Below are positions 623-30,007 of a DNA stretch of 64,000 nucleotides, one piece after another. Under the pieces are notes generated by a model. It had not been told where the DNA came from and did not search any database. It saw only the letters and a list, made by a program, of their open reading frames with translations. This DNA comes from Gammaproteobacteria bacterium (GTDB lineage Bacteria; Pseudomonadota; Gammaproteobacteria; Steroidobacterales; Woeseiaceae): assembly GCA_024640305.1 (NCBI GenBank), contig JAHEFG010000010.1:1-64000 (forward strand). The letters run 5' to 3'. The position numbers and the translations under genes are program-made. Numbering within the stretch: position 1 is the first letter of the stretch; every line of letters begins with the position of its first letter.

Positions 623-1001
623 AATTTTACCTGTGTCGTGAATTCATAAGACGTGTCCACGCGGTGAACATCATTTTCGGGGCTGAAGTTTCAAGGCGGG
701 AACGTATAACCTGACCCCAGAGGCTAACAACTCATTAGCCCTAAATCTGTAACAGTTTGTAACTCAAGGTTTTGGGTGTTCGTTACTTGCCAAGGCTTCA
801 GGACTCTCGTCGAGCCCTTTACACACATCGTCGCGATGTTTGTCACCCAGCAATTATTCGCGAGGCGAAGGATAGTTGATTCAGGGTTTGGACGCAAACT
901 GCATGGCAGGATTTGGACCTAAATAAGGTACATTGCGACTGCAACCACGCCCGGATCCAATGCTAGAATCGGCTGTTAGCTTGGTCCCGGAGGGAACCCG
1001 C
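623..1001. other. Divergent intergenic region, no gene seen
   Basis: This 379-base stretch lies between the starts of the sulfatase and the ion channel, so it must hold both promoters. I found no convincing -35/-10 pair, hairpin or operator. A short repeat of the word GTAAC near 749-762 (GTAACAGTTTGTAAC) is the only local pattern. Short open frames here lack ribosome binding sites and look random. Confidence 0.5.
989..994 (+). promoter_or_regulatory. Ribosome binding site GGAGGG deciding a GTG start
   Basis: GGAGGG lies 7 bases before GTG 1002. This favours GTG over the in-frame ATGs at 933, 960 and 1014, which have no such site at a suitable distance. Confidence 0.7.
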
Positions 1002-2120
1002 GTGAATGTCAGGATGGCCCCCAGAACGAGTCTGACGGCGCTGGTTGCGAGTGTGCTGGTCTTTCTCTTATCGAACCTGGCTGTTGCGCAGGATGTTGCT
1101 GGTCCTCTCAAACAGCGGCCGGGCGACGGATCGATCGATGTTCTTGTCGGGTTCAACCTGGTCAGCCTCACTGATGTGAGCGAAAAAGACGAAACGATCG
1201 ACTTCGACGGGGCAATCTACCTGGAGTGGATGGACCCCAGGCTTGCCTACGATCCCGCCAGCACGGGCGCGCGGGAAGCATGGACCCCGGGCGACTATTC
1301 CAAAGCGCCGCCGCGCATCTACCAGGGCAAATTTGCTGTCGAGGAGCAGTACGCCGGCTGGCGTCCACACCTGTTGATCCCTAACGGAATTGGAGACCGC
1401 TCTGTCACCAATATGGCGATCAGCATTTGGCCGGACGGTCGGGTCGCGTACTCGGAGACCTTTTATGCAAAAGTCGAAACGCCAATGGACTTGCGCAAGT
1501 TTCCGTTTGATGTTCAGGACCTGGAAATTTTCTTCCACCCCTTCATCTATCAGCGTGACGAAATCGTGCTGGTGCCTGACGACAGGCTTGCGGGCACCTG
1601 GAATCAAAACCTCGGGATTGCGGACTGGTCGCGAGAGTCGGTTTCGATGCTGGAGCGGCCCATTCAAATCGCTTATTTCGACGACTCCAAATCCGAGATT
1701 TCCGAGTTTGTCGTCACTGTGCGCATTCAGCGAGAGCCTACGCATCTCCTGATCAGCATTATTTTTCCAATGATTCTACTCGTGAGTCTGACGTGGTGCG
1801 TGTTCTGGATGGACAACGAAACACTGTCCAATCGCATCAACATCACGTTCATCGGCATACTCAGTGTCGTCGCTTACTATTTTGTTATTCTCGACAACGT
1901 GCCGGAGGTCAGTTACCTGACCCTGATGGACGCTTTTGTCATTGCCACGTTTCTGATTCTCGCCGCGGGAGTGGTTCTGATCATCGTCATGGAATCAGTT
2001 GCTCGAAAACACGATGCCGCATTCAGCCACAAGGTCGACCGTATCTGCCGCTGGGCCTTTCCGTCAGCCTACGCGTTGACGACTGCGATCCTTGCAGCGG
2101 TATTTTTTAATGCTTACTGA
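1002..2120 (+). CDS. Pentameric ligand-gated ion channel subunit (Cys-loop family, GLIC-like)
   Basis: Inner-membrane ligand-gated channel subunit of 372 residues, expected to form a homopentamer. Order: signal peptide (LTALVASVLVFLLSNLAVAQ), periplasmic beta-sandwich domain, four membrane helices. The signature of the Cys-loop region, FPFDVQDLEIFFHPF, is present without the flanking cysteines, as in other bacterial members. M1 is around HLLISIIFPMILLVSLTW, M2 around NITFIGILSVVAYYFV, M3 around LMDAFVIATFLILAAGVVL and M4 around WAFPSAYALTTAILAAVFF. Aligned by the P-x-V-S-Y loop after M2, the pore has Leu at 9' and Arg near 0', with no acidic residue at -2' where GLIC has Glu. The start is GTG 1002 on the strength of GGAGGG at 989-994. 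The ligand is unknown. A second, divergent member lies at 20079. Confidence 0.9.
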   Translation: MNVRMAPRTSLTALVASVLVFLLSNLAVAQDVAGPLKQRPGDGSIDVLVGFNLVSLTDVSEKDETIDFDGAIYLEWMDPRLAYDPASTGAREAWTPGDYSKAPPRIYQGKFAVEEQYAGWRPHLLIPNGIGDRSVTNMAISIWPDGRVAYSETFYAKVETPMDLRKFPFDVQDLEIFFHPFIYQRDEIVLVPDDRLAGTWNQNLGIADWSRESVSMLERPIQIAYFDDSKSEISEFVVTVRIQREPTHLLISIIFPMILLVSLTWCVFWMDNETLSNRINITFIGILSVVAYYFVILDNVPEVSYLTLMDAFVIATFLILAAGVVLIIVMESVARKHDAAFSHKVDRICRWAFPSAYALTTAILAAVFFNAY

Positions 2121-5485: not shown

Positions 5486-5662
5486 ATGCACAAGACAATC
5501 AAACTCGCAAAACTGGCCGCAATTCTCTGCACGTGTCTGGCGATGAGTTCCTGTGATGATGTCCGCGTCTATGGCAGCGTTGGCTACAGTTCCTACAACG
5601 GCTATGGAGGCTATGGCGGCGGCTACGGCACTCGTGTGGCAGTCGGTGGTCGAATTTACTGA
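5486..5662 (+). CDS. Small Gly/Tyr-rich lipoprotein, 58 residues
   Basis: Short reading frame beginning MHKTIKLAKLAAILCTCLAM, then lipobox MSSC (Cys23) and a tail rich in Gly and Tyr (SYNGYGGYGGGYGTR). A ribosome binding site AGGGG (5472-5476) sits 9 bases before the ATG. The charged N-terminus, hydrophobic core and lipobox make a chance frame unlikely. No known function. It sits between the VOC lipoprotein and the MipA-type barrel, and its last codons overlap the probable start of the barrel gene in another frame, which suggests coupled translation. Confidence 0.75.
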   Translation: MHKTIKLAKLAAILCTCLAMSSCDDVRVYGSVGYSSYNGYGGYGGGYGTRVAVGGRIY

Positions 5663-7232
5663 CAGCCATCTTCGCCTGCCAGCTCGGTCCCCCAGGTCGG
5701 CCGGGCTTGCCCTGGGCTTTTTCCTGTTTGCGTCGCTCACCGCAAAGGCAGGACCGCTGCTTGACTACTTTCGCGATTACGACCTGAACGACTATTCCCT
5801 CGGCCTTGCCTATTCCAGTTCGCAAAATCCTTACAGCGGCGCATCCAGTTCGCAGCTGGTCTATCCGTACCTGTCGAGCTTTAAGCATTCCGCTTTCACT
5901 CGCGACTGGTTGCTGATTCGCGGCGAAAATATGGGCATTCGCTATGTGACCGACAGCGACTGGGAGTTTGGCGCGATCGGGCGTGTACAAACCCTCGGCC
6001 CGGGCGCGGACAACAATGACGAGTTGCTGGGCCTCGATGACAGAAGCTGGGCCATCGAAGCCGGTCCACTGATCGGCTGGCGCGGCTCGCCCGTGCACGT
6101 GCAATTCAGGTCCTACTGGGAAGTGCCCAATCGACACTCCGGAATGAGCAGTGAAATAGAATTTTCGTTGCCTCTGCGGCGAGAGGACAACTTTTTTGTT
6201 CCGGCCGTGAAGGTTTCGTACCTGAGCAGTGGCTACAACGGTTATTACTTCGGCGTTGCGCAGAACGAGGCGACCGTATCGAGACCCGAGTACGATCCGG
6301 GTGCTGCTACTAACATCTGGGCCGGATTTACTTTCGGCTACGCGCTGACGCCGCGTTGGCTACTCAAGGGCACCATCGGTGTGGAGCAACTCGACAACTC
6401 CATTAAGGCCAGCCCGCTCGTCGCACGCGACAAGCTTTGGTCGGGATCGATCGGGCTTGCCTACAATGCCAATCTGTTCGTGCCCAGAGATGCCGCAGGC
6501 GGCCTGAAGGAACGCGAATTCGAAATTCGTCTGGGTACATTGAACGGTGCCATTGATGCCAAGATCTCGAAAGATGCCGGCGACGGTCAACCTGGAGACA
6601 CCGTTGACCTGGAAAATGTCCTCGGTGCAGCGGATCGGGAAACGATTTTCCAGGTCGACGCAAGAGTGCGCATCGGCCATTACCACCGCATTGAACTCGG
6701 TGCATTTCGGCTGGCACGGCGTTCGACCACCACTATAGAAGACGACCTGACCTTTGGCGACCGGACTTACCTGGCAGGCACGGAAATCGAGAGCAAGACC
6801 GATTCAGAACTTCTTCGCATCACCTACGCTTACTCACTGATGCGCGATAGCCAGAAAGAACTCGGCGTGGCGGCCGGGCTCAGCTATTTTCGTTTTGCGA
6901 CCATGGTTAGCGAAGCAGGCCTGCAACAACCCGAGCAATTCGACGCGAAAGGCCCACTACCGACATTCGGCGTTTTTGGCGCGGCCCTGTTCAACGGCAA
7001 ATGGAGACTGGATGCCGACGCACAAGTGTTCGCTCTGGACTACGACCGCTACGACGGCTTCATGAGCTATTTGCGATTCGGCCTGGAGCGGAAATTTGAC
7101 ACGGGCTTTGGCGCCGGACTGGGCTATGACGTCTATGCCTTGCGACTTCGCTCCAAAGACCAGGGCTCAAGCGGCGATCTGGACCTGCTTTATAACGGAC
7201 CGAAGCTGTTCTTCAGCTTCGCTTTTGACTAA
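5646..7232 (+). CDS. MipA/OmpV outer-membrane barrel with a second C-terminal barrel domain
   Basis: Outer-membrane protein of about 528 residues. After a signal peptide (GLALGFFLFASLTAKAG) the first half is a MipA/OmpV barrel, shown by YYFGVAQNEATVSRPEYDPG and TFGYALTPRWLLKGTIGVEQ. MipA proteins are normally about 250 residues. Here a second block of about 240 residues follows, beginning at EFEIRLGTLNGAIDAKI with repeated amphipathic strands (DLENVLGAADRETIFQVDAR, RIELGAFRLARR) and ending in FFSFAFD. It resembles small outer-membrane barrels with an acidic D-L-E-x-x-L-G loop. The start is uncertain: GTG 5646 is chosen because it gives a normal signal peptide and overlaps the stop of the small lipoprotein, but in-frame ATGs from 5553 exist. 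Function unknown; MipA itself was described as a scaffold for murein enzymes in E. coli. Confidence 0.8.
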   Translation: MVEFTDSHLRLPARSPRSAGLALGFFLFASLTAKAGPLLDYFRDYDLNDYSLGLAYSSSQNPYSGASSSQLVYPYLSSFKHSAFTRDWLLIRGENMGIRYVTDSDWEFGAIGRVQTLGPGADNNDELLGLDDRSWAIEAGPLIGWRGSPVHVQFRSYWEVPNRHSGMSSEIEFSLPLRREDNFFVPAVKVSYLSSGYNGYYFGVAQNEATVSRPEYDPGAATNIWAGFTFGYALTPRWLLKGTIGVEQLDNSIKASPLVARDKLWSGSIGLAYNANLFVPRDAAGGLKEREFEIRLGTLNGAIDAKISKDAGDGQPGDTVDLENVLGAADRETIFQVDARVRIGHYHRIELGAFRLARRSTTTIEDDLTFGDRTYLAGTEIESKTDSELLRITYAYSLMRDSQKELGVAAGLSYFRFATMVSEAGLQQPEQFDAKGPLPTFGVFGAALFNGKWRLDADAQVFALDYDRYDGFMSYLRFGLERKFDTGFGAGLGYDVYALRLRSKDQGSSGDLDLLYNGPKLFFSFAFD

Positions 7233-19132: not shown

Positions 19133-19843
19133 TTAGCCGGCGGTGCCGATATTGTGGGTTTCTGCGAGTCCCTCAAGTTTCTCGCGTACCAGCTTTGCCC
19201 ATGCTTCGGCCAGGTTTTTTACCTCGACCATATTTCTGACCGGGTTGGACCATGTCATGCCGCCCATTGCTTCTGCACTACGACGTTGTATGCCCCGCAA
19301 TAGCGTCGTGTTGCTTTCGGAATCAACCAGTTCGATAACCAGCGTCGCCTCACCAAGCGAGGACAGGAAGATGTCGCTTCTGCCGCCAATTGCCTCCGGC
19401 GGAACTTTGGAAATCACATCCAACAGGTAGCCGCGCACCACCAGCACGTCGGGACCCGGTGCCGTGACCACCTGCAGACCCTCAACGTTTGCAAGCTCGG
19501 TTGCGAAGGCGGTCTGGAAGATCTCCTGGACCTGCCCTCTTGCCTTGTCCGAAATCGGGAAAGCATCCACTGACGAGTTATACATGGTGCCACGAGAAAC
19601 CCTCTTTACGGGGCGATACTCGATACCGGCGCCTTGCAGCATGATTTTCGTATATCCGGAAAGATCAAAGTCTGCCCGTGCCCATACTTTGCTGCTGCGG
19701 GGCGTATTCGTCACCGGGTACAAACCATCGTAGCTTAGTTCTGCCGATTCGCTGGTATCGATTTCCCGGGGACCACTGGCACATCCCGCGATCGCCGCGA
19801 TCGCGCACAGCACCAAGGCAATTTGAATATTCTTTTTTCGCAT
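19133..19843 (-). CDS. DUF3313-family lipoprotein (copy 2)
   Basis: Lipoprotein of 236 residues, lipobox IAGC (Cys21). It shares with the protein at 14224 the blocks GIEYRPVK, PGPDVL.VR.YLLDVISKVPPEAIG (here with Ile/Tyr changes), EATLVIELVDSES and a C-terminal NPVRNMVEVKNLAEAWAKLV. Overall the two are clear paralogues. AGGA six bases before ATG 19843 supports the start; a longer frame from 19900 lacks a signal at its N-terminus. Copies 1 and 2 face opposite directions and enclose AsmA and the lipoprotein at 18449. Function unknown. Confidence 0.85.
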   Translation of the reverse strand: MRKKNIQIALVLCAIAAIAGCASGPREIDTSESAELSYDGLYPVTNTPRSSKVWARADFDLSGYTKIMLQGAGIEYRPVKRVSRGTMYNSSVDAFPISDKARGQVQEIFQTAFATELANVEGLQVVTAPGPDVLVVRGYLLDVISKVPPEAIGGRSDIFLSSLGEATLVIELVDSESNTTLLRGIQRRSAEAMGGMTWSNPVRNMVEVKNLAEAWAKLVREKLEGLAETHNIGTAG

Positions 19844-20016
19844 AATAGTTCCTAAGCATTTGTTAATTAACGGTTCATGCCCGACAAATTTGAAATCCAC
19901 TATCGTCGAGTCCCGAGAACACTAGCTGAAGCCTATAGTCCTGTCTAATATTTCGCGTGTCCCGCCGCTGGCCTGCGAACCGCGGGGTCGACACGGGGAA
20001 ACGCGTTCTTCGTTTG

Positions 20017-20078: not shown

Positions 20079-21140
20079 ATGGCCTTCGAAAAAGTAGCGA
20101 TATTTCTTGCGCGCTCGGTTCGCAGGCTCGTGCCGGCCTTGCTGTTTGGCGCGATCACGATCGCATTACCGAGTCAGGCAGAAGTCCTCGACACTCCAAG
20201 CTGTGACCTTGCTGGCTACGAGTCTTCGGTTCGACCAAACCCGCCGGGCACGCAGACAGAGGTCATAATAGGCGTGTTCCTGGCCGACCTGAATGCGATC
20301 GACGATATCTCTCAGACGGTGGCGCTGGACTCACTGCTCACGCTGCAATGGACGGACGAGCGGCTCAAGACGTTCGCAGGTTGTCGGTACCCGTACTCCG
20401 CTATCTGGACGCCGGAAATTCAACTGAGCAATTCCGGAACGATCCGGAGCCGGCAGACGCCGCAGGTTTTGGTCGGAGCAAATGGCAAGGTAACAACCAC
20501 CGTTCGATACGAGGGTACCGTTTCCAGCCCGGCGAACCTCAAAGATTTTCCGTTTGATGAGCGCGCTATCAATCTACAGCTCATCAGCCTCAAGCATGAC
20601 GCCGCAGAACTGTCATTTCGTATGTCGCAAGACTGGACCGGGCGGCGAGCAGGCTTGACTGTGCCGGATTGGACGATTGGAGAACCGACCGCCGAGGTCG
20701 GCGAACTGGAACTGCCACGTGTAGGGAGAACCGTTTCGACATACGACTTCCAGATTCCGGCCGCACGGCTTGGCGATTACTACATTTATAAGTTCGTTTT
20801 CCCCCTGTGCCTGATTGTCATGATGTCCTGGGCAGTCTTCTGGATCGACCCGACCAATCTCGGCCCGCAGCTGTCGTTGGCGGGCACATCGATGCTGACG
20901 CTGATCGCGTACCAGTTTACCGTGAACGACCTGTTACCCCGGGTCGGCTACCTGACTGCGATGGACCAGTATGTATTGTCGTCTTCTCTGCTCGTATTCC
21001 TTGCGTTGGTGGAGGCATTAATTACTGGCTCGCTTGCCAGCAGGGACCGCGCCGCGACAGCCGAAATGCTCGACCGCATCAGCCGCTGGGTATTCCCGGC
21101 CACCTATCTACTCGTAATTCTGACTACCCTGGTTCTGTGA
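20079..21140 (+). CDS. Pentameric ligand-gated ion channel subunit, second copy
   Basis: Channel subunit of 353 residues. Signal peptide ends near LPSQAEV. The extracellular domain has the Cys-loop region signature FPFDERAINLQLIS and two extra cysteines (in PSCDLAGYES and FAGCRYPYS) that could form a disulfide. M1 is around YIYKFVFPLCLIVMMSWAVF, M2 around LSLAGTSMLTLIAYQF, M3 around YVLSSSLLVFLALVEALI, M4 around WVFPATYLLVILTTLVL. Aligned by the LPRVGY loop after M2, 9' is Leu and the -2' to 0' positions read G-P-Q, so the acidic ring of cation-selective GLIC is missing. It differs strongly from the protein at 1002, so the two are not recent duplicates. The stop overlaps the next gene's GTG in a GTGA, suggesting coupled translation with the CotH-like protein. 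Confidence 0.9.
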   Translation: MAFEKVAIFLARSVRRLVPALLFGAITIALPSQAEVLDTPSCDLAGYESSVRPNPPGTQTEVIIGVFLADLNAIDDISQTVALDSLLTLQWTDERLKTFAGCRYPYSAIWTPEIQLSNSGTIRSRQTPQVLVGANGKVTTTVRYEGTVSSPANLKDFPFDERAINLQLISLKHDAAELSFRMSQDWTGRRAGLTVPDWTIGEPTAEVGELELPRVGRTVSTYDFQIPAARLGDYYIYKFVFPLCLIVMMSWAVFWIDPTNLGPQLSLAGTSMLTLIAYQFTVNDLLPRVGYLTAMDQYVLSSSLLVFLALVEALITGSLASRDRAATAEMLDRISRWVFPATYLLVILTTLVL

Positions 21141-22225
21141 CCGGGCGCAAAGAACGGTACATCTCGCTGCGAACTACTTATCGGTCTCGCGGCGCTTTTC
21201 CTGCGTTTTTTCTGTCACTGTTACTTGGCGCGTCCGGGAGCGCCGACGAATTACCACTGTTCGCTACGGACGTACCGCTTGATGTCGTACTCGAGCTGCC
21301 GCTAAACACGATTCTCAAGCAATCCGCGAAACGTCCTGTCGTTGCCGGGCAGCTACATTATTCGGACTCAACAGGTCAGCAGGTCACCCTCGACGTTAAG
21401 GTCACCACACGGGGCAATTCGCGGCTCGAGCAGTGCAGCTTCCCGCCATTGTCTATTACGGTGAAAAAAAAGCAGGCAACAGACACCTTGTTTGCGGGGC
21501 AGAAAAAACTGAAATTGGTAACGCACTGCCAGAATCGGAGTAGTTTCGGCCAATACCTGTTGCAGGAATACAGCATTTACCGCGCATTCAATGCGCTGAC
21601 TGACATCTCGTTTCGCGTCCGACGCCTGAATATCAGCTACAGAAACACTGAAAAATCCGGCCGCGAGATCGATGCCGATGCCTTCCTGATCGAGTCAATC
21701 GTTGAGGTTTCGAAACGCGCCGACTTGCAGCGCATGAAAGTCGACTCCGTGTCTGCGCGGCAGCTGGATCCCTCCTACGCCACGATTTCAGCAGTGTTTC
21801 AATTCCTTATCGGCAATACCGACTGGTCGATAGCGCGCGGGAGCCGCAAGAATCGTTGCTGTCACAACGGCAGGGTGTTATCGCCTGCTGACAAAGAAAC
21901 TGGCTGGCTTGTGGTTCCTTACGATTTCGACCAGGCGGGCCTGATCAACACAAGCTATTCGCAACCCAACCCAACCCTCCCGATAAGGTCCGTTCGCCAG
22001 CGCCTTTACCGAGGCCGCTGTGCATTCGCAGACCAGCTGGACGCAGCGATTAAGTTATTCAATGACAGGCACAGTGAGCTCGAATCTATTCTGTTGCCTG
22101 CTGGGCTGAGCGGCGGCAAGCGCAAGTCTTCGCTTGCCTACATCGACGAATTCTATCGAATCATAAACGACGAAGAACGAATGCAGTATTACGTCGATCG
22201 GGGTTGCATGGGACCCAAATTATAG
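21137..22225 (+). CDS. Exported CotH-kinase-like protein (remote), coupled to ion channel
   Basis: Exported protein of 362 residues starting at GTG 21137, which overlaps the stop of the channel gene by four bases. A signal peptide (AFPAFFLSLLLGASGSADE) follows. The body has TTRGNSRLEQCSFPPLSI, a Lys-rich strand (TVKKKQ), KLKLVTHCQN, FGQYLLQEYSIYRAFNALTD, FLIGNTDWS (225-231 region) and WLVVPYDFDQAGLI (around 257-270). The order R-G-N-S, then a helix with LxxEY, then G-N-x-D, then P-Y-D-F-D resembles CotH-type kinases, where N-x-D and P-W-D-x-D hold catalytic and metal-binding aspartates. The likeness is seen by eye only. A CC pair (241-242) sits between the two motifs. If it is a kinase, substrate and phosphate donor in the periplasm are unknown. 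Confidence 0.65.
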   Translation: MTGRKERYISLRTTYRSRGAFPAFFLSLLLGASGSADELPLFATDVPLDVVLELPLNTILKQSAKRPVVAGQLHYSDSTGQQVTLDVKVTTRGNSRLEQCSFPPLSITVKKKQATDTLFAGQKKLKLVTHCQNRSSFGQYLLQEYSIYRAFNALTDISFRVRRLNISYRNTEKSGREIDADAFLIESIVEVSKRADLQRMKVDSVSARQLDPSYATISAVFQFLIGNTDWSIARGSRKNRCCHNGRVLSPADKETGWLVVPYDFDQAGLINTSYSQPNPTLPIRSVRQRLYRGRCAFADQLDAAIKLFNDRHSELESILLPAGLSGGKRKSSLAYIDEFYRIINDEERMQYYVDRGCMGPKL

Positions 22226-22291: not shown

Positions 22292-23002
22292 TCAAGTAAC
22301 TCCCGACTTCGCTGCCCGATTTTCAATTGCAGTAATTCGATCTTCATACGAGCCCGCACGTTTCATCAGTTCCGCCACCATAACGAACAAGTCCTGCGAT
22401 TCCCGCGAATCGAGCGACATTGGCAGGTCGAACTGGCGCCGAGTGCCCTCCTCGTGAAAAGCATAAAACAACGATCGCATCGCTCGTACCATATCGGCCG
22501 CGCTCGAGGCGCTGTCCATGAAATGACTCATTGCAAGCTGCGACGTCTCTGCATCAAACCGGGCACGATCGTACGCGCCCTTGATCGAAGCCCATACCAG
22601 GTCCAGGTCCCCATTCGAATGTGCATATTCATCCGCAAAAAGGACGGGCGCAATCTGTTCGATTTCGCGATGCAGCGCACCGGATACTCCTGCCTCTTCG
22701 CAGATATACGTTAGCTCGGCATAGGCGTCCGTCGAATTGGCAAGCAGCACTCCCATTTCCGCCTCGCTGTCGATTTCCCGAATCAGGTTCCGATAGCAGT
22801 GCTCAACCGGATCGCTTGCCTCGAGTATCATTTCTATCTTTGCCATGTTCTCTGCAATAACTCGATGCCGCGTCCATCGATCGAGCCCGACAAGCAGCTT
22901 GAACTCATCGGCGTTTGCAGTATCCAGCCAGACTGCGACAGATCTGCGAACAGCCTCGCTCAACGTGTAAGCTTCGGTTTCAGTCTTGTTGCGCGTCGTC
23001 AT
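22292..23002 (-). CDS. Hypothetical protein, 236 residues, helical
   Basis: Not recognised. The protein is soluble, acidic and probably all-helical (for example LSEAVRRSVAVWLDTANADE, MAKIEMILEASDPVEHCYRN, SSAADMVRAMRSLFYAFHEE). There is no signal peptide or membrane segment. GAGGAG six bases before ATG 23002 marks the start clearly; an upstream in-frame ATG at 23032 is less likely. It is divergent from the AraC-type regulator at 23148, with 145 A+T-rich bases between, so that regulator may control it. Confidence 0.75.
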   Translation of the reverse strand: MTTRNKTETEAYTLSEAVRRSVAVWLDTANADEFKLLVGLDRWTRHRVIAENMAKIEMILEASDPVEHCYRNLIREIDSEAEMGVLLANSTDAYAELTYICEEAGVSGALHREIEQIAPVLFADEYAHSNGDLDLVWASIKGAYDRARFDAETSQLAMSHFMDSASSAADMVRAMRSLFYAFHEEGTRRQFDLPMSLDSRESQDLFVMVAELMKRAGSYEDRITAIENRAAKSGVT

Positions 23003-23147
23003 GATAGTCTCCTCGAGTTGCGTGAGATTCATTTTGGGTCACGACGCGGTTCGAATCCGGTTGCCTCAACTCAGGATCTGGTCATTTCGCCTCATAATCA
23101 TAACTATTTGATATATATAGCGAAAAAAGGTTAAATCGGGGTGACTT

Positions 23148-24182
23148 ATGCTATGCGATCACACTACTTTGGCGAACGTTCCGCGCTTGCTCGCACGAAC
23201 GCTGCGCGACGACTACGCAATCGATCCAACGCCCTTGCTGCTCGAAGCCGATATTGACGCCGCTGCGTTCATGCAGCCTGGCGCCAGAGTCCCATTTAGC
23301 AAGATGACTCGGCTTTGGGAGCTGGCGGTGCAGGCGACCGGCGACCGCCTGTTCGGCTTTCAGGTTGGCTCCCACCTTGTTCCCAGCGACTTCTATGTAC
23401 TCGGTTACTCGTGGATGGCCAGCGGCACTCTGTACGATGCGCTGGAACGATTGTGCCGATACGTCCGCGTTGTCTCCTCCGCAATAAGCACTTTGCAGCT
23501 CGAAGAGAGTGATGAGGCAGTGGCACTGGTTGAGGTTTACCGGGATCGGATGGTTGTCCCAAACCGAGCAGCCAGTGATGGTGGCTACGTCGCATTAATG
23601 AAACTCTGCGATTCAATAATGCGGCGCCCGGTTCGCGCTATTTCGGTCGAGCTCACCGTGCCACCTGACGCCGCAAATCCAGCGTACGGAAAACTGTTCG
23701 GATGTCCCGTCGTTTTCGGTGCCGCCGGCGACAAGATCTTTTTTTCGCGCTCCGACATGGAACAGGCTCTGCCCGGCTCGCTTCCCGAAATACTCGATGC
23801 ATCGGACACGGTCGCCGACCGCTACCTGCAGTCGATGGATATGCAGACTGTTGCCGCGCGCGTCCGGCAACAGATCGTGCAGATGCTACCTTCCGGTCAT
23901 GCCGACCAGGAAACGGTGGCAAGCCATTTGCACCGCAGCCGCGCAACCCTGCAGCGCCAGCTCAGCGCCGAAGGCACCAGCTTCAGGAGAATTCTGGACT
24001 CGACCCGCAAGAGCCTTGCGATCCAGTATTTGCGCGACGGTACGCATAGCCAGGCGGAGATCGCATTTTTGACCGGCTTTACCGACCAGAGTAACTTTGC
24101 GCGAGCTTTTAAACGCTGGTCCGGCGTCACCCCAGGCCATTATCTGCAAGATGCCTATACGACCACAGAGGCTACTGAATAA
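23148..24182 (+). CDS. AraC-family regulator with Arabinose_bd-type N-terminus
   Basis: Transcription factor of 344 residues. The N-terminal ~200 residues match the AraC-type arabinose-binding-like domain found in OruR/ArgR-like and Mmr regulators (LLARTLRDDYAIDPTPLLLE, RLWELAVQATGDRLFGFQVG). The C-terminal AraC DNA-binding domain has two helix-turn-helix units: QETVASHLHRSRATLQRQLS and SQAEIAFLTGFTDQSNFARA, followed by the family ending FKRWSGVTPGHYL. The effector is unknown. Its neighbours are a divergent hypothetical gene and a downstream K+ channel gene about 100 bases away. Confidence 0.9.
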   Translation: MLCDHTTLANVPRLLARTLRDDYAIDPTPLLLEADIDAAAFMQPGARVPFSKMTRLWELAVQATGDRLFGFQVGSHLVPSDFYVLGYSWMASGTLYDALERLCRYVRVVSSAISTLQLEESDEAVALVEVYRDRMVVPNRAASDGGYVALMKLCDSIMRRPVRAISVELTVPPDAANPAYGKLFGCPVVFGAAGDKIFFSRSDMEQALPGSLPEILDASDTVADRYLQSMDMQTVAARVRQQIVQMLPSGHADQETVASHLHRSRATLQRQLSAEGTSFRRILDSTRKSLAIQYLRDGTHSQAEIAFLTGFTDQSNFARAFKRWSGVTPGHYLQDAYTTTEATE

Positions 24183-24964: not shown

Positions 24965-26041
24965 TTAACCCGGTTTGTTATCGCGCGACCAGAATGCATC
25001 GAAGATGTAGACGGCGCCGACGCCATACGCCGTAGCCCAGCCGAACATTATCAACCGATCGTAGAAACGCGCATCGGCGCTACTGCCATAGTTGCCGTCG
25101 AGCGCCGCTGGTGCCAGCACCAGGATCATCGTCAGGAAGGCGTAGGTCCACGTCGCAGCGTCAGGTCGAAGCCCCTCGCCCTGAAAAATGTATCGCCCGA
25201 AAATGAGGCCAGCGAGGGCAATTAACAATGCGTATGGCAAAAGCGAAGGCCATATGCTCAGGAACTGCCACGCGACGATAGCCGCAAGCCCGCCGACCAC
25301 CGTCGATACTATTAATGACCTGGCGGCATCGCGCGTACTCTCTTTGGATGCCTCCTGGCCCATGGCAGCCACCTTGATCATCACGGCCATGTTGCTTGCG
25401 CTACTCCCGGTCAACAGGAACCACAACAGGATCGGCAGGACAATTGCCAGCGAACGCAAGGCATGATGACGCGCAAGAGCCGCATCGATCTTCGTTACCT
25501 CTTTCGCTTTCGCCGGTGCCGCGGCCAGCTCGCGTGCGGGGTCCGCGATTACTACGTGACTAAACGCCGCTATCGCCGCGCCAGCCGCAGCCCCGATGAC
25601 CAGTCCATGTGCTGCTGCCAACAAACCATCAACCGATACGCTCCCAACCGCAACCGTAAATGCCAGTGCGATTGTAATTAGCGTTCCCACCACTGCAGCA
25701 CCGCCACGAGCGGTGAAGTAAAAGCTGTGAAACAGGGCCAAAGACAGCAACAACAGCCCGACGAGTTCGGCGTGCAAAAGTAACGGCAGAAAGGCGAAAG
25801 CCGCGTACACACTGCCGGCAAGTGCGAGTATGACCACGAAAAAGAACCGCGGCTTCGGCCGCGACAGCGGCATCGTAAGCAGGAAAACCGTAATGACCGG
25901 AGCAAGGTAGGAAATGCTCCAGCCTATCGCCTGCGATATCCACAACGACAGCGCTGTCCCGAACGCAAGTCGCAGGATCCGACGACTCGCGATACCCGAC
26001 CCGGATCCCTCCAGCGCCGTCGCCGCTGCTTCAGTAGGCAT
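24965..26041 (-). CDS. DUF2955 (FUSC-like) inner-membrane transport protein
   Basis: Inner-membrane protein of 358 residues with about ten helices in two blocks (from RILRLAFGTALSLWISQAIG to GLVIGAAAGAAIAAFSHVVI, and from ALRSLAIVLPILLWFLLTGS to FGWATAYGVGAVYIF). This two-block layout is typical of the FUSC/aromatic-acid exporter superfamily, and DUF2955 proteins usually sit beside an HlyD-type adaptor. ATG 26041 overlaps the end of the HlyD gene by 11 bases. A longer frame to 26110 lies wholly within that gene and is unlikely. It is the last gene of the export operon; with HlyD and NodT it probably forms a tripartite efflux pump. Confidence 0.82.
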   Translation of the reverse strand: MPTEAAATALEGSGSGIASRRILRLAFGTALSLWISQAIGWSISYLAPVITVFLLTMPLSRPKPRFFFVVILALAGSVYAAFAFLPLLLHAELVGLLLLSLALFHSFYFTARGGAAVVGTLITIALAFTVAVGSVSVDGLLAAAHGLVIGAAAGAAIAAFSHVVIADPARELAAAPAKAKEVTKIDAALARHHALRSLAIVLPILLWFLLTGSSASNMAVMIKVAAMGQEASKESTRDAARSLIVSTVVGGLAAIVAWQFLSIWPSLLPYALLIALAGLIFGRYIFQGEGLRPDAATWTYAFLTMILVLAPAALDGNYGSSADARFYDRLIMFGWATAYGVGAVYIFDAFWSRDNKPG

Positions 26042-27152
26042 AGGAAAATATGCTGCCGATACGGATGTACAAAGCGCCCAGTGTATTGAAGAACCAGCTA
26101 TCGCTGGCATAGATGATTGCGGACGCCTGTGCGCCGACTTTCAGCTTGCGCATATCATCGGGCGGCATGTCGAAATCGATAATGACCGGGAACCGCTGCG
26201 CATCGCGAAGCCATTGCCGGTTGTTGCTAATGCTGGGCAGACTGCCGAGCGGCGCGCTATCGACCGCGACGCCGAATCCCGTTGCTCGCACCGTTCCCTT
26301 GAAAACGCGCCCCGGAAAGACATCGAACGCAAGGCCAACCGCATCGCCACGATCAACATGCCCGAGGTTGTTCTCGGTAAAGTCGGCCTGTACCCATACG
26401 TCGTCGGTGGAGATAAATGTCATCTGCGGCACTCCCGCCCCGGCGAAGTTGCCGCGATCGACACGCACATCAGTAACAACTCCTGTTGCCGGCGCAAGTA
26501 TGGCCGTACGTTCAAGGTCCAGCTGGGCAGCCGCAAGGGCGGACCGAGCTTGTTTAATTCTCGAGTTATCCTCACCCACGCCACCACGATTCTGTCGCGC
26601 TTGCTCCAGGTTGGCTTTGGCCGCAGCGAGCTGCTGCTCGGCAACCAGCAGAGATGCTTCGGCCGTTTCGAGCCTGCGGTCCGAGATCGCACCCGAATCC
26701 TGACGCTTGATGCGCCGCAGGCGCTGCGCATCCTGCTCTGTGCGGACCAGGCTCGCCTGCGCTGATGCAACGGACGCCTCTGCCGCGTCAACGCCCGCTG
26801 CCGACGCACCCGTGGCCTGGCGAGCCGACTGCAGGTTCGCCTCGGCGCTGGCCACGGCCAGGCGATAGCGATCATTATCGATGCGAAACAAGACGTCACC
26901 CGCCTTGACGAGCTGATTATTGGCGACCGCAATCTCGGTAACCCTTCCGGGGACTTCTGCCGCGATGGGCACAACGAGGGTATGCACGCGCGCCTGTGAC
27001 GATACGGGCGTCAACCTGTCAGCAGTCAGGTAGCCGACCAGCAATATGGCACTTAGCGCCAGTACTCTGACCGTCCATGTTCGAACCGGATCCTTTTGCG
27101 GCGGCGCTTTCGGCTCGGTTTTCTGTTCTTCAGTCTCAGTGTTTTCAGTCAT
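26031..27152 (-). CDS. HlyD-family membrane fusion protein (EmrA-like)
   Basis: Periplasmic adaptor of 373 residues: cytosolic N-terminus rich in Glu/Lys, one membrane helix (VRVLALSAILLVGYLTADRL), first half of the lipoyl domain (VPIAAEVPGRVTEIAVANNQ), a long helical hairpin with Ala/Gln-rich coils (about residues 95-205), second lipoyl half and the beta-barrel (ILAPATGVVTDVRVDRGNFA). ATG 27152 overlaps the stop of the NodT gene by one base (TAATG). It links the DUF2955 inner-membrane protein to the NodT outer-membrane channel. The substrate is unknown. Confidence 0.92.
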   Translation of the reverse strand: MTENTETEEQKTEPKAPPQKDPVRTWTVRVLALSAILLVGYLTADRLTPVSSQARVHTLVVPIAAEVPGRVTEIAVANNQLVKAGDVLFRIDNDRYRLAVASAEANLQSARQATGASAAGVDAAEASVASAQASLVRTEQDAQRLRRIKRQDSGAISDRRLETAEASLLVAEQQLAAAKANLEQARQNRGGVGEDNSRIKQARSALAAAQLDLERTAILAPATGVVTDVRVDRGNFAGAGVPQMTFISTDDVWVQADFTENNLGHVDRGDAVGLAFDVFPGRVFKGTVRATGFGVAVDSAPLGSLPSISNNRQWLRDAQRFPVIIDFDMPPDDMRKLKVGAQASAIIYASDSWFFNTLGALYIRIGSIFSYAY

Positions 27153-28702
27153 TACTCTGTCTCGCTATCGGCTTCGGCAGCGTCGATGAGATCGCCCCAG
27201 TCAGTGCGGCCCGTTAATGCGTCACGTGTTTCCTGATCGATGAGACCGGCGTCGTGTCGAAGTTCCCAGCCACCGCCCAGTGCCAGGTACAGGGAGATGA
27301 AATTGCCGACGATATTGCTGCGGTTGACCACGTAGCGACCTTGCTGTGTGAACAACGACTGCTGCGCGCTGAGAACGCGCTGGTAGTCGGCAAATCCTTC
27401 ACTGAACCGCAACGTCGCAACCTCGACCGAGCGTTGCGCGTTGGCAACGGTCTCTGCCAGCATTTCCTGCTGTTGTACCGCCCCATCGAGGGCCACGATC
27501 GCGTCTTCGACTTCTCTGGCGGCCTGCAGCACTGTTTCGCGGTAAGCAATCAACGACTGTTGCAGGCGCGCATCCTGCACACGAACATTGTTTTTCAGGC
27601 GACCGTAATTAAGGAAAGGCCAGACGAAGCTCGGACCGATTGAGTAGGTCAGGCTATCCGCGCTGAAAAGCTGGCCGAAACCACTCTCTCCAGAACGTGT
27701 CGTGTCGGTGTTACCTGCAGCCGTCAGCCCCACCGACCCCGACAGCGAAAAACTGGGGTAGAGGTTGGCCCGGGCAAGACCTACCCTGGCATTTTGTGCC
27801 ATGGCGCCGTACTCCGCCTGGCGCACATCAGGTCGTCGCCGGAGCAGGTCCGCCGGAAGTCCGATAGCAAGCTGTGTCGGTACCGTCGGTATGCTGTTTG
27901 CGCCGGCTAACAGGTTGCCGATATCACCCGGGGGCATACCCAGTAGCGCACTCAGCGCATGCTTCGCCTGGTGCAGTTGTGTTCGCAATTCCGGGAGCGA
28001 CGCCTTGGTGCTCATGAGCAGCGTGCGCGCCTGCAGCACATCCAGTTCGGATGTCGATCCGTTGCGAAACTGCACATCCACAATTTCGTAACTGCGCTGC
28101 TGTAGCGCAATATTTTCATTGGTTATTCGCAGCTGCTCCTCGAGCGTGCGAATGGCCAGGTACGAGCCGCAGACCTGCGCCGTGACCAGCACCATGACCT
28201 GGTCGTAGCCGGCCACCGATGCAAGAAACGCCGCATCGGCCGCTTCAATGCCGCGCTTGAATTTGCCCCAGAAGTCGATTTCCCAGGACGCCCCTGCGCC
28301 AAGACTGAACTGCGTGAAGCTCAAATCGCCCGCTGCAGTATTCGCGGCGTTCTCGCTCGCCTGCAGCGCTGACACATCACCCACGACAGCCTGGGTCTGC
28401 GGGAACTGGTTGCCGACAGCGATGCCCAATTGCGCACGTGACTCCAGCACGCGCAGGCCGGCAATTTTCAGCGAGTTATTCTGCCGATGTGCCGTTTCAA
28501 TAAGATGATCGAGTACGGGGTCGCCCAGCGCCTGCCACCAGAGAATCTGCTGCTCGGCACTGGACTCATAGCCTTCACGTTCTGCGCTGTACCAGTCGGG
28601 CCCCAACGGCGAGTCGGGCCTCACGTAGTCCGGCCCCACCACCGTACAGGCGCTGAGCCAGAAGACAGGTATCGCCAGCAGAACGCGTGACGCGTACCTC
28701 AT
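27152..28702 (-). CDS. NodT-family outer-membrane efflux lipoprotein (TolC/OprM type)
   Basis: Outer-membrane channel of 516 residues with lipobox LSAC (Cys19) and the early motif VGPDYVRPDSPL typical of RND outer-membrane lipoproteins. Two OEP repeats are seen: one with LKIAGLRVLESRAQLGIAVG, the other with RRRPDVRQAEYGAMAQNARV and the conserved LYPSFSLSGSVGL. It would form the outer-membrane duct for the HlyD/DUF2955 exporter encoded next to it. It starts 9 bases after the AI-2E-type gene's stop. Confidence 0.93.
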   Translation of the reverse strand: MRYASRVLLAIPVFWLSACTVVGPDYVRPDSPLGPDWYSAEREGYESSAEQQILWWQALGDPVLDHLIETAHRQNNSLKIAGLRVLESRAQLGIAVGNQFPQTQAVVGDVSALQASENAANTAAGDLSFTQFSLGAGASWEIDFWGKFKRGIEAADAAFLASVAGYDQVMVLVTAQVCGSYLAIRTLEEQLRITNENIALQQRSYEIVDVQFRNGSTSELDVLQARTLLMSTKASLPELRTQLHQAKHALSALLGMPPGDIGNLLAGANSIPTVPTQLAIGLPADLLRRRPDVRQAEYGAMAQNARVGLARANLYPSFSLSGSVGLTAAGNTDTTRSGESGFGQLFSADSLTYSIGPSFVWPFLNYGRLKNNVRVQDARLQQSLIAYRETVLQAAREVEDAIVALDGAVQQQEMLAETVANAQRSVEVATLRFSEGFADYQRVLSAQQSLFTQQGRYVVNRSNIVGNFISLYLALGGGWELRHDAGLIDQETRDALTGRTDWGDLIDAAEADSETE

Positions 28703-28711
28703 ATTGCTAAC

Positions 28712-29818
28712 TCACTTACCTGCACCGGCTTCGGCTTCGCTTGCGCGGGTCTCGGCCGGCCGGAGCCAGTCGGAGAGGATTGTGTATGCCAGCCCGAGAA
28801 TTACGGCCCCGACAAATAATCCGACGATGCCATATTCGATCATTCCGCCGATTGCACCGATAAGTACGATGAGGGCCGGCAGGTCGACACCTCTACCGAG
28901 CAATATCGGCTTGAGCACGTTATCGCTAAGAGCAACGAACATTGAGTAGACGGCAAAAATTGTCGCCGGTACCGGAGCGGCGAATGAAAAGACCCACAAA
29001 ATGATGGGGACTATGATGACAAGCGCAGGTACCTGGACGATGGAGGTAATGAGGACGATGGCTGTCAGGATGCCCGCATGCGGCACCTGCATAACGAAAA
29101 ACCCGATGGCAGCCAAAACCGCCTGAATCACTGCGACTCCCAGCACACCATTGGTAACGCTGCGAATCGTGGCAATAGAAATATCCGTCCAATGCTGTCC
29201 ACGATCGGGGTTAATCCGCTGGGCAATTGCTTTGCTCAACTTGTAGCCGTTGTCTGCGTACAGCATCGCGACCCCGGCAATAATGATCGAAATCGCGAAC
29301 TGCAGTACGCCGATTGCCAAAGACCCGGCGCTGCGCGCCAGCCATTCGCCAACATTGCGGAGTTGCGGCTGAAACTGGTTCAGCGTGCCCTCCAGATTCG
29401 CCGCCGCACCTGCCCAAACCGCATACAAGCGTTCCCCTATAAGCGGCCAGCCGGCAACATTCTCACCAGGCGGTGGAATGTCGATATTGCCCGCCTTGGC
29501 CTCACCGGCGAACGCCATAATTGAAGTGATTGCCGACTCAGCCATCATCCAGGCCGGCAGCACCACCAGGGCTAGTCCCGCGAGGATGATGATCAGCACC
29601 GATAACTTTGCTTTGCCGCCCAGCATAGCCGCCAGCTTCAGGTGCACCGGGTAAACCGCAACCGCCATGATCACACCCCAGAGGACCAGGCCCGCGAAGG
29701 GTCCGATAATATTGATGGATGCGCTAATGAGTATGACGACAGCCGCTATCTGGATGAACGACGTCATCACATTTCTCTGGAATGTATCGCTGTTGCCAGT
29801 TTCCGCCAAACTATTCAT
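28712..29818 (-). CDS. AI-2E-family (PerM-like) permease
   Basis: Inner-membrane protein of 368 residues with about eight helices, starting SFIQIAAVVILISASINIIG. The C-terminal AI-2E transporter signature is clear: GVLGVAVIQAVLAAIGFFVM, ILTAIVLITSIVQVPALVII and LIGAIGGMIEYGIVGLFVGA. The family includes TqsA (autoinducer-2) and Na+/H+ antiporters; the substrate cannot be inferred. AAGGA nine bases before ATG 29818 supports the start; an upstream frame to 29893 has no better site. It leads the operon with NodT, HlyD and DUF2955. Confidence 0.88.
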   Translation of the reverse strand: MNSLAETGNSDTFQRNVMTSFIQIAAVVILISASINIIGPFAGLVLWGVIMAVAVYPVHLKLAAMLGGKAKLSVLIIILAGLALVVLPAWMMAESAITSIMAFAGEAKAGNIDIPPPGENVAGWPLIGERLYAVWAGAAANLEGTLNQFQPQLRNVGEWLARSAGSLAIGVLQFAISIIIAGVAMLYADNGYKLSKAIAQRINPDRGQHWTDISIATIRSVTNGVLGVAVIQAVLAAIGFFVMQVPHAGILTAIVLITSIVQVPALVIIVPIILWVFSFAAPVPATIFAVYSMFVALSDNVLKPILLGRGVDLPALIVLIGAIGGMIEYGIVGLFVGAVILGLAYTILSDWLRPAETRASEAEAGAGK

Positions 29819-30007
29819 AAGCGTGATTCCTTCTTCTTCGTCGCGTAAAAATTCAAGCCAGGCTCGGTCTCTTGGAACCGCTCGATTTTGCAATCAGGCA
29901 GTGTGCCATAAGATGTAAACCATGTGAGCGCTCGGAACCCTCAGTGACCTGATTTTCCCGGGCTTATCTATGAGGGTTGTTCTGGCCAACTGTTGGCTAC
30001 TGAACGA

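Follow-up and report, generated by a model that had tools for sequence, protein, structure and literature searches.

A GLIC-like channel gene overlapping the gene for an exported CotH-fold protein in a Woeseiaceae genome, and the wider family to which that protein belongs

The channel gene, its neighbours and the four-base junction

The window, that is, the whole stretch of DNA analysed here, comprises 64,000 nucleotides (contig JAHEFG010000010.1, positions 1 to 64,000, assembly GCA_024640305.1) of a gammaproteobacterium assigned to the Woeseiaceae. The genes and features at the locus are as follows.

19133–19900, reverse strand: DUF3313 lipoprotein, divergent to the channel gene (PF11769, 5.9e-13)
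20079–21140, forward strand: GLIC-like pentameric ligand-gated ion channel (pLGIC) subunit, 353 aa, with signal peptide, ligand-binding domain and transmembrane region
21137–21140, forward strand: GTGA overlap of the channel stop TGA (21138–21140) and the GTG start of the next gene (21137–21139), read directly
21137–22225, forward strand: exported CotH-family kinase-fold protein, 362 aa (AlphaFold2, Foldseek, VIA-align, hhalign)
22292–23032, reverse strand: protein without an assigned name, a homologue of which lies near the CotH-like gene of a sister genome (49-52% identity to L062 8207-8911, next to AraC and CotH-like genes)
23148–24182, forward strand: AraC-type regulator (PF12625, 4.1e-37, and PF12833; 48% identity in L061 and L062)

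Judged by its sequence, the product of 20079–21140 is a GLIC-like pLGIC, predicted to conduct ions in a gated manner as a pentamer. The Pfam models for both of its domains matched well above their cut-offs (PF02931, Neur_chan_LBD, 3.8e-20 and 72.7 bits against 26; PF02932, Neur_chan_memb, 2.2e-13 and 51.4 bits against 28.1), and the best matches in the PDB were GLIC and GLIC chimeras, at about 1e-31 to 5e-34. A score of 131 bits for the NCBIfam subfamily LGIC_1 (NF033918) fell below the cut-off of 500, a result that concerns the subfamily only. A second pLGIC is encoded in the window at 933–2120 (forward strand); it is distant (24% identity to the 20079–21140 channel) and is without a CotH-like neighbour. 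A third is a fragment at a contig end (G000:C16:8303-8644). A biological role is known for no microbial pentameric channel (PMC4795631).

The first-pass annotation had reported that the channel stop and the following GTG share four bases, as the GTGA at 21137–21140 confirms, and had concluded that the two proteins are probably made in a fixed ratio. The overlap does not show as much, as a possible four-base NTGA overlap was counted in about 11% of same-strand neighbouring ORF pairs (27/253) across the window and the related loci; the GTGA junction is thus ordinary for an operon. Scans of the locus for promoters and terminators gave no signal above shuffle level. The channel gene and the second gene are very probably co-transcribed and would be co-expressed, with the second gene translated by termination-reinitiation at the GTGA.

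It is highly improbable that the second ORF is untranslated, or its GTG start wrong, so that the coupling is meaningless. In favour of such a view is the finding that no Shine-Dalgarno-like sequence was seen upstream of GTG 21137, although such an absence is usual where reinitiation occurs at an overlap. Against it, the conservation seen across 80 relatives extends along the length of the protein, and among ATG, GTG and TTG codons the only in-frame candidates before the signal peptide are GTG 21137 and 20807, the latter deep inside the channel gene. GTG 21137 is, on this reading of the frame, the sole credible start.

An exported protein of the CotH fold

Four further copies of the second gene are present in the same genome, and relatives were matched in 85 of 149 kin genomes. 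A genome scan yielded 80 loci (L061-L140) in Woeseiaceae, other Proteobacteria, Gemmatimonadota and a few further groups, so that the family alignment holds 81 sequences. In the tree the window protein clusters with L008 and L010 (SH-aLRT 96), the sister copies being L008/L061 and L010/L062.

Pfam, NCBIfam and PDB sequence searches with the 21137–22225 product alone returned no match, so that the suggestion that its motifs are those of a CotH-type kinase could be tested only through structure and profile comparison. The AlphaFold2 model built from the 81-sequence alignment was of high confidence (pLDDT 92.2, pTM 0.88), and the best solved folds in a Foldseek search of the PDB were both CotH (5jd9, E 6.3e-9; 5jda, E 1.6e-8). 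VIA-align gave Z 19.8 and 19.6 for these two structures versus 12.0 for the next fold, and hhalign matched the family profile to an alignment of nine canonical independent CotH proteins at E 8.8e-6. With an E limit of 0.1, the Pfam CotH model, PF08757, matches 10 of the 81 family members, the strongest at 1.2e-6, and the window protein is unmatched by this curated profile. The second protein is therefore a member of the CotH fold superfamily that lies outside PF08757 as curated, and it belongs to a divergent, six-cysteine Gram-negative CotH clade mostly missed by Pfam. The structure prediction and fold search thus upheld the CotH assignment, with the catalytic residues kept. The features of the protein are listed below.

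21137–21247, forward strand: Sec-type signal peptide, about residues 1–37 (hydrophobic segment KD9 2.38; cleavage at GSA/DE in our reading)
21410–21424, forward strand: R92-G-N-S-R96, counterpart of the CotH G-x-S-S-R motif (R92 and R96 invariant, 81/81; A3 consensus)
21815–21823, forward strand: N227-T-D229, counterpart of the CotH N-x-D catalytic aspartate, B. subtilis D228 (by motif and D-to-D spacing)
21857–21868, forward strand: C241-C242-H243-N244, N244 being the counterpart of the catalytic-loop Asn (aligned with HN of CotH)
21917–21931, forward strand: P261-Y-D263-F-D265, counterpart of CotH P-W-D-Y-D, B. subtilis D251 (hhalign and CotH alignment)

The earlier proposal that the protein is exported agrees with its predicted N-terminal export signal, the one strong hydrophobic segment that it contains, and a comparable N-terminal segment is found in 80 of the 81 family members. 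Cysteines 100, 131, 295 and 357 are invariant in the 81 sequences and 241 and 242 are each present in 77, a pattern fitting an oxidising compartment.

The three motifs that had been pointed out (R-G-N-S, G-N-T-D-W and P-Y-D-F-D) do occur in the CotH order and prove to be the conserved columns of the family. N227, H243, N244, D263 and D265 are each conserved in 81/81 sequences, and column D229 is Asp in 76 and Glu in the other five. In Bacillus cereus CotH the string is N-F-D...H-N...P-W-D-Y-D and its two Asp are 23 residues apart, the same spacing as B. subtilis D228–D251; the counterpart string in the window protein is N-T-D229...H-N244...P-Y-D263-F-D. Substitutions at B. subtilis CotH D228 and D251 kill the kinase (PMC7821199), and a review notes that CotH proteins retain the counterparts of PKA D166, N171 and D184 (PMC12189002). 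The putative set of catalytic Asp, Asn and metal-binding Asp is complete in the window protein (D229, N244, D263), and nucleotide binding and phosphate transfer, to an envelope or extracellular substrate, are therefore predicted.

Neighbourhoods of the channel and of the CotH-like family

The claim that the second protein partners the channel had been made to depend on the pair being conserved in other genomes, and it did not survive the survey: the pair was seen in this genome only. Among the 80 loci of the second gene's relatives (1.18 Mb in all), none holds a pLGIC within 10 kb on either side, and a search with a pLGIC profile bore this out; some loci end early at contig ends, many contigs being short and genome sampling incomplete. 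Conversely, no CotH-like gene was found beside the other surveyed pLGICs in samples of the kin, family, order, class and phylum, most neighbourhoods being scanned over 1.5 kb and some over as much as about 10 kb. The closest channel orthologues, in G075 (66%) and G002 (56%), have unrelated genes beside them and are without a CotH-like neighbour; in G075 a close CotH-like copy (51%) lies on another contig, beside a gene that we read from its sequence as dihydrodipicolinate-synthase-like. Ten other kin genomes carry both families on different contigs, and the two families do not occur together more often than chance would predict (Fisher p 0.27). Roughly estimated, with gene numbers that had to be assumed, about 0.05 adjacent pairs would arise by chance across the 11 kin genomes with both families; as it was the reading of the window that singled out the pair, this figure is no evidence for a link.

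These observations bear on the view that the second protein is a dedicated partner, a secreted kinase that would phosphorylate the extracellular domain of the channel, or another channel regulator, and so set its gating. The shared strand and the four-base overlap imply co-expression, both proteins act in or face the periplasm, and the CotH-type fold keeps its catalytic residues; yet NTGA overlaps are common, the pair is missing from every other genome examined, including those of the two closest channel orthologues, and the ten genomes with both families hold them apart. Such a role is accordingly quite improbable. The other role that had been suggested, supply of the channel's ligand, is speculative. 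Judged on conservation, a channel partnership is unlikely, and the kinase-like protein probably does not serve the channel as a dedicated partner, because the gene pair is found in this genome only.

The sister lineages suggest how the arrangement arose. In both (L008/L061 and L010/L062) the CotH-like gene lies directly downstream of the AraC-type regulator, and in L010/L062 a homologue of window 22292–23032 is found on the regulator's other side. As both 22292–23032 and 23148–24182 are still present in the window, the CotH-like gene, on the evidence of these three genomes, seems to have been relocated within the local cluster, ending behind the channel gene.

A conserved neighbour of the pLGICs themselves was also sought within 10-20 kb in kin genomes. 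A MipA-family protein and DUF3313 recur near the closest orthologues, and the more distant pLGICs share no neighbour, so that no conserved neighbour is claimed. In G075, which holds the closest channel orthologue, the nearby DUF3313 homologue (61%) lies at L150 12349-13296. The MipA-family outer-membrane protein (window 5553–7232, forward strand) has homologues near the G075 and G002 channel orthologues and near the L062 CotH-like gene, and the efflux cluster at window 24965–29893 has homologues (65-78% identity) also beside a different pLGIC, in G057 (L196).

The neighbours of the CotH-like family are of another kind. An exported PPP-type metallophosphatase is encoded at most 3 kb from the CotH-like gene in 41 of the 80 loci, with one occurrence farther off, and a DUF4956 membrane protein within 3 kb in 39, versus one farther off; 33 loci have both. 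Of the other copies in the window genome, that on C40 is accompanied by the phosphatase and DUF4956, and that on C42 by DUF4956; the window copy and its sub-clade are without either neighbour. At Z 32 and with 31-32% identity, the phosphatase model matches the PPP-fold protein tyrosine phosphatase of Shewanella. About 17 of the family phosphatases are some 600 aa long and bear a C-terminal PI4K-II-like domain (for example L069:7993-9834, reverse strand), which matched 4hne and 9hhm by Foldseek (3.5e-6) and, weakly, Pfam PI3_PI4_kinase; in our reading of the alignment the domain appears to be without the usual catalytic Asp residues. The conserved neighbours suggest a module for phosphorylation in the envelope, and the window copy would have drifted away from it. 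A limited literature search found no report of an association of exported CotH and phosphatase genes, which is not proof of absence.

Interpretation and comparison with known systems

The best explanation, to which we assign a probability of about 0.6, is that the locus is an ordinary two-gene operon produced by the recent joining of unrelated genes, one for a GLIC-like channel and one for a secreted, predicted CotH-fold kinase. The first gene would yield an inner-membrane channel subunit and the second a periplasmic, atypical kinase held together by its conserved cysteines. With the phosphatase and DUF4956 as neighbours, the core task of the family would be the reversible phosphorylation of exported proteins. 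The sub-clade of the window copy would have left that cluster, its sister lineages showing linkage to the AraC-type regulator instead, and the window copy would then have come under the expression of the channel gene. The family role may not carry over to the window copy and its sub-clade, since they lack the phosphatase and DUF4956 neighbours, and no action on the channel is needed to explain the gene arrangement.

ATP is scarce in the Gram-negative periplasm, and a plain periplasmic protein kinase is therefore awkward. Two further points tell against the main reading: no Pfam model matches the window protein, and Tyr262 stands where CotH has its adenine-sandwich Trp. The scarcity of ATP outside the cytoplasm is one reason to consider that the CotH fold serves another chemistry here, either as a phosphotransferase or nucleotidyltransferase on envelope glycans, lipids or small molecules, or as a non-catalytic nucleotide binder. 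AMPylation and glutamylation are also carried out by kinase-like folds (PMC10870513), and CotH, DUF4956 and polyphosphate polymerase genes accompany Gram-positive Pel polysaccharide clusters (PMC7112168), DUF4956 being likewise a neighbour of the second gene's family. The full D/N/D catalytic set is kept, however, and the associated phosphatase has a PPP protein-phosphatase fold, so that another chemistry is unlikely. One could go further than the two-gene operon and propose that Gram-negatives practise extracytoplasmic reversible phosphorylation by an exported CotH-type kinase, a PPP-type phosphatase (in some cases fused to a PI4K-II-like domain) and DUF4956, and that here a diverged copy of the kinase, placed under a pLGIC gene, could modify the channel; taken as a whole, this is a speculative and rather unlikely proposal.

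A real operon partner of a microbial pentameric channel would be a handle on the long-standing question of what these channels do, and the present pair falls below that bar because it occurs once. Of more consequence is that the CotH fold, with its catalytic residues, is found in a large family of exported proteins, most of them unannotated, spread over Proteobacteria, Gemmatimonadota and other groups. This family also tends to adjoin an exported protein phosphatase, which suggests phospho-signalling outside the cytoplasm in Gram-negatives. The most interesting lead lies in this wider family and its phosphatase rather than at the channel junction.

With respect to known systems, the channel resembles GLIC and other prokaryotic pLGICs in its ligand-binding and transmembrane domains, its similar length and a Pro-loop without the Cys-loop cysteines. 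It differs from GLIC in having two cysteines close to the binding domain's N terminus, common to the G075 and G002 orthologues, and, by alignment, a Gly at the M2 -2' position in place of GLIC Glu222. This glycine, together with GLIC/GlyR and GLIC/GABA-A chimeras being the best PDB matches, suggests that the ion selectivity of the channel may differ from that of GLIC.

The second protein shares with CotH (PF08757; 5jd9, 5jda) a fold superposable over 267 residues (Z 19.8, rmsd 3.3), the order of its motifs and the D/N/D counterparts D229, N244 and D263, and is unlike it in an identity of just 14%, in its signal peptide for export and six conserved cysteines, and in the 15 residues, versus 5 in CotH, from the catalytic Asp to the Asn. 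The adenine in CotH sits between two aromatics, Tyr142 and Trp245; the latter, the Trp of P-W-D, is replaced by Tyr262 in the window protein.

As to the pair, the first-pass annotation had held partners of bacterial pLGICs to be almost unknown, which is an overstatement: in 2004 Tasneem et al. described predicted operons in which bacterial pLGICs are accompanied by stand-alone PBP-II or Cache proteins (PMC549065). Like those operons, the window encodes a soluble, exported protein next to a pLGIC, and unlike them it has a kinase fold in place of a ligand-binding protein and a pairing that is not conserved. Finally, the family resembles the Gram-positive Pel accessory genes (PMC7112168) in linking a CotH-type gene to DUF4956, which holds for 39 of the 80 relatives; neither DUF4956 nor the phosphatase lies beside the window copy, and it is the exported PPP-type phosphatase, as a further partner, that sets the Gram-negative family apart from the Pel arrangement.
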